From positions 1 through 64,000 of the forward strand of contig JANXBE010000001.1 in the NCBI GenBank assembly GCA_025060175.1: a stretch of DNA of 64,000 nt, in the 5' to 3' direction. The notes beneath the pieces are model-generated. The model did not search any database. It saw only the letters and a program-made list of their open reading frames with translations, and was not told the origin of the DNA. Every line of letters begins with the position of its first letter. The first letter of the stretch is position 1. The position numbers and the translations under genes were made by a program. Below, one piece after another: positions 49,125 to 52,754 of this stretch. This stretch comes from Thermomicrobium sp. (GTDB taxonomy: Bacteria; Chloroflexota; Chloroflexia; Thermomicrobiales; Thermomicrobiaceae).

Positions 49125-49397
49125 GCCCGTGGCGGTTCAGGCTCTGGGGAGAGCCGCGAGACCGACAGCAGTGTGTGGAATCGCGGGAAGGCGCGGTTGT
49201 CGGGCTCGCTTTCGCGCCGGGCCGACACTACCGTGGCGATGGATGTGCACCCAGGCCGTAGGCTGACAGGCAGCCCCGCAGCGCTCGACTCCCACCGCAG
49301 ACCCCCAGGGGGCCAAAGCCACAGGAAGGAGTGTGTCGACCCGTCTGGTTCAGCGCCGGGAACGTGGTGGAGGACCGTGGGCGCAACACTGCCGTCA
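49125..49397 (+). other. Intergenic, no gene seen
   Basis: About 270 bases between ruvX and the darA promoter with no recognisable coding or RNA feature. Confidence 0.5.
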
Positions 49398-49426
49398 TTG
49401 CAACGCCGGGATCGCCCCGTTATACT
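49398..49426 (+). promoter_or_regulatory. Promoter of the DarA-like gene
   Basis: TTGCAA (49398-49403) and TATACT (49421-49426) are 17 bases apart. A 10-base palindrome CGGTCGACCG (49428-49437) follows at the expected start of transcription. Confidence 0.75.
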
Positions 49427-49467
49427 GCGGTCGACCGTGTGGGGTGTTCAGAGGGCCGAGAGCAGAC

Positions 49468-49755
49468 ATGAAACTCCTGATCGCAGTGGTTCAAAACGAG
49501 GATGCCGACGCGATCGTCGAGGCGCTTCTAGAGCGCCAATTTCGGGCGACGCGCCTTGCGAGTACCGGCGGATTTCTCCGGCGCGGTAATACCACCCTGC
49601 TGATCGGTGTCGAGGATTCCGACGTCGATACCGTACTGGAACTGATCCGAGCCCATGCTCGAACTCGGGCGCGTCAGGATGCACCCGCGGGCGCGCTGAC
49701 GAGCGCCGCCGCGACGGTCTTCGTCATTCCGTTGGAAGACTACCAGCGCCTCTGA
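49468..49755 (+). CDS. darA: PII-like cyclic di-AMP receptor (DarA/PstA, DUF970)
   Basis: 95 residues starting MKLLIAVVQNEDADAIVEAL. The DUF970 pattern follows: FRATRLASTGGFLRRGNTTL, then LIGVEDSDVDTVLELI and a C-terminal ATVFVIPLEDYQRL. DarA/PstA trimers in Bacillus, Listeria and Staphylococcus bind c-di-AMP; TGGFLR and GNTT are the ligand-loop residues. The window also encodes the cyclase (cdaA), so both synthesis and sensing are present. It is monocistronic with its own promoter, and its output partner is not known in any species. Confidence 0.92.
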   Translation: MKLLIAVVQNEDADAIVEALLERQFRATRLASTGGFLRRGNTTLLIGVEDSDVDTVLELIRAHARTRARQDAPAGALTSAAATVFVIPLEDYQRL

Positions 49756-49768
49756 CTGCACCGCTTCC

Positions 49769-50104
49769 TCATCGGAAAGACGTCCATCGCCGCGAGCGCG
49801 ATCCAGCTCGGAGGCGATGCGCTGCTCGTCTCATCAGGATCAGCGTCACGGTAGCACAGAGGAAGCCGCCCACGAACAGCGATTCGACGGGGATCGACGT
49901 GGCCTGCCAATCGATGAATCGGGCGGTGACGAGCCCGAGGAGCGTGGGATAGACGAGCAGACCCCCCAGAGCGAAGATGATGGCCTCGAGGAACGCGGTG
50001 CGCTGGTCCGCACCGGTGAGCCGACTCCCGAGATAGGGACCGAGTGTCCCGGCGGGGAGCCAGAGGGCGAGTGCCCGAACGATGTCCGCAGTCGTGACGT
50101 CCAT
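49769..50104 (-). CDS. Hypothetical small membrane protein
   Basis: 111 residues with three hydrophobic segments (ALALWLPAGTLGPYLGS, EAIIFALGGLLVYPTLLGLV, and ESLFVGGFLCATVTLILM) and a very basic C-terminus (RRAAHRLRAGSRSRRW). It is convergent with the DarA-like gene, 13 bases between stops. I do not recognise a family. The hydrophobic organisation makes a real gene likely. Confidence 0.6.
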   Translation of the reverse strand: MDVTTADIVRALALWLPAGTLGPYLGSRLTGADQRTAFLEAIIFALGGLLVYPTLLGLVTARFIDWQATSIPVESLFVGGFLCATVTLILMRRAAHRLRAGSRSRRWTSFR

Positions 50105-50446: not shown

Positions 50447-51298
50447 TCACACGTCATCCCCCGTCCAGAGACCAGCGAGTCGCAGAAGATTGCAGGCGAG
50501 AACCGCCGTAGTGACGGGACCGGTGCCCCCGGGAACCGGCGTGAGTGCGGCCGCGACATCGGCGACTGCGGGATGCACGTCGCCCACGACGCGTCCTTCG
50601 ACCACTGTCACCCCGAAGTCGACGACGACGGCGCCGGGCTTGACCATGTCCGGCGTCACGAGCCCCGGATGGCCCACAGCGGCGAAGACGAGGTCGGCTT
50701 GACGAGTCAGAGCGGCCAGGTTTGTTGTCCGGCTGTGGCAGATCGTGACGGTCGCATCGGCAGCCAATAGAAGGAGAGCGAGCGGGCGGCCGACCACAGG
50801 ACTACGGCCGATGACCACCGCATGTTTGCCGGCGATGTCCACCCCGTAGTGTCGGAGGAGGATGAGGCCGCCGAGGGGCGTGCTGGGAGCGATGTGTGGT
50901 CGGCCGACAGCCAATCGTCCTTGCTGCTCGAAGGAGACGCCGTCGACGTCCTTGGTCGGTGGCATCGTGTGCGAGAGCGTGTGCCGGTCGATCGCGGACG
51001 GTAGTGGTTGGAGCGCTAAGATGCCCGTGACCGAGTGGTCTGACTCGAGTTGCTTGATCAGTGTGACAAAGGACGGAATGTCCAAGCAGTCTTCCAGCGT
51101 AAATTCACGCACTTCCAGCTCGAGCGAGCGGAATTGCTTGCGGATAGTGCGGGCGTAGGCGAGGGCCGAGGGGTCGCCGGGGATCAACAGCGCGAGGGTA
51201 GGACGAGCGGTGCCGGATGGAAGGGATGCGAGAAGGGACCGGATCTTGTCGTGCAACTGGGAAACGACCGGTGCTCCAGTCAAGGGACGTGCCGGCAT
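50447..51298 (-). CDS. folD: Methylenetetrahydrofolate dehydrogenase (FolD family), divergent at cyclohydrolase site
   Basis: 283 residues. Family features: SALAYARTIRKQ with the substrate Tyr48, PPTKDVDGV with the conserved Asp, the NADP-binding KHAVVIGRSPVVGRPLALLL, CHSRT, and PVPGGTGPVTTAVLACN. In bifunctional FolD the active-site Lys lies four residues after the Tyr (YxxxK); here that position is Ile52. The usual VQLPLP is ALQPLP, so the Gln is displaced by one. Both residues serve the cyclohydrolase step, so the protein is probably dehydrogenase only. An fchA-like gene lies upstream. GGAGGTGAT precedes the ATG. Confidence 0.9.
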   Translation of the reverse strand: MPARPLTGAPVVSQLHDKIRSLLASLPSGTARPTLALLIPGDPSALAYARTIRKQFRSLELEVREFTLEDCLDIPSFVTLIKQLESDHSVTGILALQPLPSAIDRHTLSHTMPPTKDVDGVSFEQQGRLAVGRPHIAPSTPLGGLILLRHYGVDIAGKHAVVIGRSPVVGRPLALLLLAADATVTICHSRTTNLAALTRQADLVFAAVGHPGLVTPDMVKPGAVVVDFGVTVVEGRVVGDVHPAVADVAAALTPVPGGTGPVTTAVLACNLLRLAGLWTGDDV

Positions 51299-51404
51299 CC
51301 ATCACCTCCGGTTGCTGCTTTCAGCGACGGCGTCGACAGCTGACAGCGCGCTCGGTGCACCGCAGCGACCGAGCGACGAGGACGCATCCTGCGCTCGAGG
51401 CGCC

Positions 51405-51977
51405 TCATTCAAGAATGGACCGCAACTGGACGAGACGGCGCTGGATACCGTCCGCGAACGCCGCTGCTCGGTGAGGTGGGAGAAGGGACAAGTTGGCTTG
51501 GGCCATCGCGAGCGCGGCCTCCACGCTGGCCCGGGCGAGGGCTCTGGCCGCCACGAGATCGGAAGCGGCGAAGGGCGGCACGCTCGGAGCCAAGCGGTTC
51601 AACGTTTCCAGCAGTTGGAGAGCGAGGTCCGCCGTTTGCAGGGGAACCATCGTGGCTCGTTCGACCACCGACTCTCGGTCTCCCGTGGGAATCGTCGGTT
51701 GGAACGTCGAGAGCAGGTCGTGGAGCACCGCACGGTCGAGGTCGGCACGGGCGAGCGCCTGCTCGATGACCGATGCCAAACCGATTGCCAACTCGTGGGT
51801 CTGCGATTGTTCGAGGTGCCGGTGGGCAGCCCGCCGCACGAGGTCACCCAAGGCAGCGGCCTGAGCCAACGTGAGACAGGCCGCGACACCGCCGCCGCAG
51901 CGGTAGCGCGGTCGTCGTATTCGCTCGATGAGTTCGAGCACGGTCCACTCGGCGATTCGGTCCTCCTGCTCGTGCAC
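51405..51977 (-). CDS. fchA: Cyclodeaminase/cyclohydrolase family protein (FchA-like)
   Basis: 190 residues from GTG 51977, with GGAGGG six bases upstream. It matches the stand-alone FTCD_C domain: LELIERIRRPRYRCGGGVAA near the start (PGGG loop, here CGGG), an all-helical body, and ASDLVAARALARASVEAALA near the end. Such domains act as formimino-THF cyclodeaminase or methenyl-THF cyclohydrolase. With no formiminotransferase domain and folD 106 bases downstream, the cyclohydrolase role fits best. The gene symbol is by inference. Confidence 0.75.
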   Translation of the reverse strand: MHEQEDRIAEWTVLELIERIRRPRYRCGGGVAACLTLAQAAALGDLVRRAAHRHLEQSQTHELAIGLASVIEQALARADLDRAVLHDLLSTFQPTIPTGDRESVVERATMVPLQTADLALQLLETLNRLAPSVPPFAASDLVAARALARASVEAALAMAQANLSLLPPHRAAAFADGIQRRLVQLRSILE

Positions 51978-52197: not shown

Positions 52198-52226
52198 TTG
52201 ACGGCTGGGCACGGATGGCGTATGAT
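52198..52226 (+). promoter_or_regulatory. Promoter of xre-dnaE
   Basis: TTGACG (52198-52203) and TATGAT (52221-52226) are 17 bases apart. A transcription start near 52233 excludes the longer in-frame start of the XRE gene at 52215. Confidence 0.75.
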
Positions 52227-52289
52227 GCGCGTGTCGGGGTGGCACCGTATGCGCGCGGCGAATTCGCCGAAAGCAGAAAGGTGAGGGCA

Positions 52290-52754
52290 ATGGCGAGCGA
52301 GCCGGTCCTGTTCTTCGGTGAACTGCTGAAGCGGTACCGCGAGTCGGCGCGTCTGTCGCAGAGTCGACTGGCGCAGCGTGCCGGTTTCGATCACAGCTAC
52401 GTGTCGCGCTTGGAAAGCGGGCGACGCGCTCCGACCCGCGAAGCGATCGTGCGACTGGCGGAGGCGCTCGAGCTGACTTCGGCCGAGCGTGACTCGCTGC
52501 TCGCGGCGGCTGGGTTCCTGCCGGAGCAGGCTGAGCACCTCTTCACTGACGAACCCGTCTTGAGTGAAGTGGTCGAGCTGTTGCAACGCCGCGACGTGCC
52601 GGATGCTGTGCGCGAGGATCTGCGCCAGCTTCTGGCGCTGGTCGTGCGCCAGTTCAAGCGGGCCCTCGTCGGCGTCGGTTCGAGCGGTGAGGTGGCGGAC
52701 AGTCTGCCCAGCGAGCGGCGATGGAATGCACGCTGGTCCGGGCAGACCGCCTGA
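52290..52754 (+). CDS. XRE-family transcriptional regulator
   Basis: 154 residues from ATG 52290, with AAGGTGAGG seven bases upstream. The N-terminal helix-turn-helix is clear: LKRYRESARLSQSRLAQRAG, then FDHSYVSRLESGRRAPTREA and AEALELTSAERDSLLAAAGF. The remainder is helical, with no ligand or enzymatic domain recognised. The gene precedes dnaE by 136 bases on the same strand. It could regulate its own promoter, which has the short repeat GTGCC-GCTAT-GGCAC (52157-52171) upstream. Confidence 0.88.
   Translation: MASEPVLFFGELLKRYRESARLSQSRLAQRAGFDHSYVSRLESGRRAPTREAIVRLAEALELTSAERDSLLAAAGFLPEQAEHLFTDEPVLSEVVELLQRRDVPDAVREDLRQLLALVVRQFKRALVGVGSSGEVADSLPSERRWNARWSGQTA

Follow-up and report, generated by a model that had tools for sequence, protein, structure and literature searches.

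Clostridium perfringens FolD is reported to act as a dehydrogenase only, with FchA supplying the cyclohydrolase activity in a system of FolD, FchA and Fhs, the formate-THF ligase. Mutants of the human enzyme at Lys56 and Gln100 are likewise said to lose cyclohydrolase activity and to keep the dehydrogenase. Yeast MTD1 (1edz) is a monofunctional NAD-dependent methylene-THF dehydrogenase that has the FolD fold and has lost cyclohydrolase activity; we know of no FchA partner for it. In the FolD cyclohydrolase the Lys serves as general acid/base, the Gln positions the Lys and an Asp positions the pterin, and these residues are described as strictly conserved among orthologues (PMC3338484). A Gln is described as lowering the pKa of a neighbouring catalytic Lys, and Gln is given as an activator for the FolD enzyme (PMC13156950). 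The K53A and Q97A mutants of the silkworm enzyme still hydrolysed methenyl-THF, with a catalytic efficiency close to that of the wild type (PMC6443876), so loss of the Lys or the Gln need not abolish cyclohydrolase activity.

The window analysed here, a 64,000-nucleotide stretch of DNA from Thermomicrobium sp., a thermophile of the Chloroflexota, carries folD (50447..51298, minus strand; PF00763/PF02882), which encodes a 283 aa methylene-THF dehydrogenase predicted to be without cyclohydrolase activity. Directly 5' of it on the same strand, with 106 bases between, lies an fchA-like gene (51405..51977, minus strand) for a stand-alone FTCD_C protein of 190 aa, proposed to be a methenyl-THF cyclohydrolase of a derived subfamily. 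A GGAGG ribosome-binding site stands shortly 5' of the folD ATG at 51298; the fchA-like gene begins with a GTG at 51977, which in the alignment is in register with the ATG starts of its genus relatives. Just upstream of fchA a divergent gene (52215-52754, plus strand) encodes an Xre-type HTH regulator, a possible regulator of the pair. Downstream of folD are genes for a small predicted membrane-like protein with no Pfam match (49769-50104, minus strand) and for a cyclic-di-AMP receptor family protein (49333-49755, plus strand; PF06153, 99 bits).

We consider it likely that in this pair the normally bifunctional FolD has been split, FolD being a dehydrogenase only and the FchA-fold protein performing the hydrolysis to 10-formyl-THF. 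The window FolD, which retains the Rossmann domain and is apparently an NADP-type dehydrogenase, would oxidise 5,10-methylene-THF to 5,10-methenyl-THF and go no further. Its cyclohydrolase step would have been lost with the general acid/base Lys for water attack, now Ile52, and with the positioning Gln, now Leu96. Conversion of methenyl-THF to 10-formyl-THF would then fall to the FchA-fold protein, encoded by a gene of its own immediately upstream in the same direction. We infer this enzymatic division of labour from the sequence, fold, gene order and co-occurrence of the pair, which are described below.

The window FolD matched THF_DHG_CYH (PF00763, 56.7 bits) and THF_DHG_CYH_C (PF02882, 182.8 bits), placing both FolD domains, catalytic and NAD(P)-binding, within one protein, and scored below the NCBIfam FolD equivalog cut-offs (best 265.7 bits against 411). 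Its AlphaFold2 model (mean pLDDT 95.5) was closest among solved structures to Thermus thermophilus FolD (6v6y, TM 0.93), and the phmmer alignment to that protein (211 bits) had zero gaps at both cyclohydrolase motifs. The YxxxK motif, canonically YVRLK, reads YARTI (Y48-A-R-T-I52), so that Ile52 (ATC codon, 51143..51145, minus strand) takes the place of the catalytic Lys (Lys54 in E. coli, Lys56 in the human enzyme). The VQLPLP motif reads ALQPLP (A95-L96-Q97), with Leu96 (codon 51011..51013, minus strand) in the column of the Lys-positioning Gln (Gln98 in E. coli, Gln100 in the human enzyme) and Q97 next to it. Both the pterin-positioning Asp117 of KDVDG (E. coli Asp121; codon 50948..50950, minus strand) and the substrate-site Tyr48 (E. 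coli Tyr50; codon 51155..51157, minus strand) are retained, in columns that are invariant. The first-pass annotation had claimed that the catalytic Lys was replaced by Ile52, that the VQLPLP Gln was out of place and that the KDVDG Asp remained; gapless alignment to characterised FolD proteins of solved structure bears out all three, and the adjacent Q97 is a coincidence. An indel or alignment slip at ALQPLP is ruled out by the ungapped alignment to 6v6y, and a sequencing error or single-genome oddity by the finding that Lys loss is common to the genus, family and order.

It is most improbable that Lys54, two residues on, functionally replaces the lost Lys. Lys54 is on the same helix as the lost-Lys position, and its E. 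coli counterpart, Lys56, is among the putative substrate-site residues (PMC6443876), but by helix geometry a residue two places along points to another side. Moreover, the position two past the catalytic one is Lys or Arg about equally often with the catalytic Lys (94/100 copies) as without it (88/95 copies), and a basic residue there is therefore not specific to Lys-less copies. The alignment excludes Lys54 from the catalytic column, a placement that would have contradicted the first-pass annotation, and the loss of the Lys stands.

FTCD_C (PF04961) was the only domain in the product of the upstream gene (57.5 bits; cut-off 24.5). A phmmer search of this protein against the PDB gave no match; profile and fold searches did, and the AlphaFold2 model (pLDDT 96.0) was nearest to 1o5h, the cyclodeaminase of T. 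maritima (TM 0.86), and to 7vg4, the Fch of M. extorquens (TM 0.81). The gene thus encodes a lone cyclodeaminase/cyclohydrolase domain, as had been proposed from the sequence. FTCD_N, fused or adjacent, was absent from the window's genome (G000, 54% complete) and from a second genus member (G022, 99% complete), which speaks against the FTCD histidine-degradation enzyme as an identity for the window FTCD_C.

In the alignment of the order, the FchA proteins of families f1 and f3 form a derived subfamily with the signature xGGG[V/A/S]xA, Leu85, Leu88, Phe136-x-x-Ser-Asp140-Leu and Asn162. The subfamily keeps GGG28-30, Asp81, Pro112, Ser139-Asp140 and Asn162; of these, GGG, Asp81, SD140 and Asn162 are invariant or nearly so. 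Replaced in it are the PTP that precedes GGG, an Arg, the Gly ahead of SD and two Tyr (both Leu in 21/21 derived proteins), and in canonical FchA the motifs so lost (the PxPGGG prolines among them) are invariant or near-invariant. Catalysis by the window FchA is for this reason less certain than by a canonical FchA, and we infer it for the derived form. A literature search of open papers found none on FchA/FTCD catalytic residues. With the window as reference, dN/dS against genus relatives was about 0.14-0.29 for fchA and about 0.06-0.18 for folD, rough values given that synonymous sites are near saturation; the low values for fchA indicate a maintained gene under purifying selection, evolving faster than folD.

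The derived FchA of the order might instead be non-catalytic, a scaffold or regulator of FolD, with 10-formyl-THF made from formate by Fhs and FolD serving only for NADPH and for methylene/methenyl-THF interconversion. The loss of canonical motifs, the faster evolution of fchA and the presence of Fhs in the genus all fit that explanation, which we nonetheless judge unlikely: the (near-)invariance of GGG, Asp81, SD140 and Asn162, together with clear purifying selection, fits a retained folate site. It is conceivable, and we put it forward tentatively, that Thermomicrobiales-type genomes (f1, f3) hold a new FchA subfamily that carries out methenyl-THF hydrolysis, or some other service to FolD, without several canonical motifs. 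Since the derived FchA co-occurs with FolD lacking both cyclohydrolase residues, the two proteins may act as an obligate unit.

We surveyed 61 genomes of the order. The window's genome, whose nearest named relatives are the bins HR28 and HR27, which we take to be hot-spring organisms, has one FolD and one FTCD_C. No second, intact FolD was found in it at 54% completeness, and FolD was single-copy in each of the five genus members whose completeness was 90% or more. FTCD_C was directly upstream of folD in groups f1, f2 and f3 and in the single f4 genome, and was unlinked to folD in a fourth large group, f5; every full-length operon-linked FolD in the order was without the catalytic Lys. One genome (G003) carried an intact Lys+Gln FolD away from fchA and also a FolD without the Lys, next to fchA and fhs (L083, L142).

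Genes fchA, folD and fhs are consecutive in sister genera and groups. The window's genus has an unlinked fhs (C11:202355-203989 in the window's genome), and this Fhs could supply 10-formyl-THF without any cyclohydrolase, which counts against the split. Four genomes of f5 with completeness of at least 90% (G032, G037, G041, G044) have a Lys-less FolD, a stand-alone FTCD_C and no Fhs match, leaving FchA as their only recognised enzymatic route to 10-formyl-THF. PurH, a user of 10-formyl-THF, was present in 19/21 members of the window's own family, to which that search was limited. Also counting against the split is one genome (G029, L092; 93% complete) that has a Lys-less FolD and in which neither FTCD_C nor Fhs was found; this is either a matter of assembly gaps or a real counter-example.

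The survey was extended to 141 Chloroflexota genomes, with most FolD copies read at residue level. All 55 FolD copies adjacent to FTCD_C, from 26 families, were without the Lys; 39 retained the Gln and 16 did not. Genomes without FTCD_C held 27 FolD copies with Lys and Gln and three without Lys. As to these three exceptions, one genome has other intact copies (G166), one is 87% complete (G087) and one has a second copy outside the residue count (G110). Where FTCD_C was elsewhere in the genome, 16 FolD copies had Lys and Gln, one had Lys and Glu (G179) and 22 were without Lys, about half of the latter being second copies in genomes that also carry a linked pair. For 15 of the 17 Lys-keeping copies (14 with Lys and Gln, plus that of G179) the genome's FTCD_C was fused or directly paired with FTCD_N, which identifies that FTCD_C as the histidine-degradation enzyme and not FchA. 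Several Chloroflexota also have second FolD paralogues with FVLD, YLLD or YVLD signatures (L206, L224, L229, L256, L258, L263, L268), unlinked to fchA and with both residues absent.

Gln loss in Chloroflexota was almost confined to Lys-less copies, with G179 the one Lys-keeping exception. The most likely order of events is therefore that the Lys was lost first, with the Gln decaying afterwards in a number of lineages. For much of Chloroflexota the split would be an ancestral state, and the Lys loss is ancient and phylum-wide, not a local event. Our literature search found no paper on a FolD/FchA split in Chloroflexota.

A second phylum gave a similar pairing. Among 61 genomes of Bacillota, the phylum of Butyricicoccus, 13/13 FolD copies beside FTCD_C had lost the Lys and/or the Gln, and each genome without FTCD_C held at least one FolD with both. 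Five of the 13 had Lys replaced by Ala and Gln by Phe, Met or Leu. The other eight, all in Clostridia-type genomes (L332, L333, L336, L339, L340, L331, L343, L351), retained the Lys and had Glu in place of Gln (e.g. GIMVELPLP), apparently a second route by which the cyclohydrolase may have been switched off in Clostridia. The FolD of rumen Acidaminococcaceae has Leu and Met at the Lys and Gln positions (six loci: L012, L014, L018, L021, L029, L041) and KDMDC in place of KDVDG; a stand-alone, unlinked FTCD_C was present in 5/5 Acidaminococcaceae genomes checked.

For the Chloroflexota and Clostridia-type genomes combined (221 FolD copies), 93 copies were broken and adjacent to FTCD_C, none was intact and adjacent, 40 were broken and non-adjacent, and 88 were intact and non-adjacent. 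Thus 93/93 copies beside an FTCD_C gene were without Lys and/or Gln, and 55/57 genomes without FTCD_C kept an intact Lys+Gln FolD (copies grouped by genome handle, order members by locus). The co-occurrence of Lys loss with a neighbouring fchA, which the first-pass annotation had proposed to check across related genomes, holds on these counts. Fisher p-values were tiny, and shared ancestry makes them not meaningful. On the tree there were about seven state changes and four independent pairs on supported branches, that is, about 4-7 independent switches; FTCD_C presence changed the same way in about two of the four pairs and the opposite way in none. With so few switches, significance is out of reach for a phylogenetic sign test. 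The association is clean, yet it falls short of significance once phylogeny is corrected for; what supports the claim is that counter-examples are nearly absent and that the pattern is replicated in separate lineages.

These data also bear on whether the window FolD is still bifunctional, with Lys and Gln dispensable because other residues arrange the water or because spontaneous hydrolysis is fast in hot conditions, and with the FchA-like protein doing something else, e.g. formimino-THF cyclodeamination. The presumed hot-spring origin of HR27 and HR28 would be in keeping with rapid spontaneous hydrolysis. Retained hydrolysis in the silkworm K53A and Q97A enzymes would likewise fit (PMC6443876). 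We think this improbable, since the clean co-occurrence with FTCD_C extends over two phyla and includes many lineages without sign of thermophily, and no FTCD_N partner for a role in histidine degradation was found in either of the genus genomes searched (G000, G022). That the bifunctional enzyme lost one activity and a separate cyclohydrolase took it over, as first suggested for this locus, is supported as the best reading by the co-occurrence and by the four f5 genomes without Fhs, on predicted activities and about 4-7 switches. The recurrence of this pairing across the phylum and in Clostridia indicates a split that is real and widely distributed.

Nearly all annotations give FolD as bifunctional. 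In our survey the cyclohydrolase residues had been lost at every folD that adjoins an FchA gene, a situation met in many families of Chloroflexota and in some of the Clostridia. The two residues offer a test for correcting FolD annotations and metabolic models. The natural intermediates (copies with Gln but no Lys, copies with Lys and a Gln-to-Glu change, and copies with neither residue) could be used to dissect the bifunctional mechanism, and the separate dehydrogenase and cyclohydrolase are candidate parts for synthetic formate pathways.

Compared with bifunctional FolD (E. coli, Thermus 6v6y and the DC domain of human MTHFD1), the window FolD shares the fold, the dehydrogenase domain, Tyr48 and Asp117, but is without the catalytic Lys and its positioning Gln. 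To NAD-specific MTD1 (1edz) it is weakly similar (32.9 bits). The window FchA has the all-helical fold, GGG loop, Asp81, SD140 and Asn162 of M. extorquens Fch (7vg4) and the FTCD cyclodeaminase domain (1o5h, 1tt9), whereas its identity to canonical Fch/FTCD is about 16% and it is missing the first three residues of PTPGGG (PTP), an Arg, two Tyr and the Gly ahead of SD. The pair is closest in kind to the monofunctional FolD plus FchA already known from C. perfringens: the window likewise has an FTCD_C gene adjacent to folD, with activities here predicted from sequence. C. perfringens belongs to a different phylum, and the linked FolD of the Clostridia-type genomes surveyed here mostly retains the Lys, with Glu in place of Gln, whereas that of Chloroflexota lost the Lys. 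New here, relative to that system, are the phylum-wide extent of the split, the probable loss of Lys before Gln, the apparent Gln-to-Glu route in Clostridia and the derived FchA subfamily in the order.
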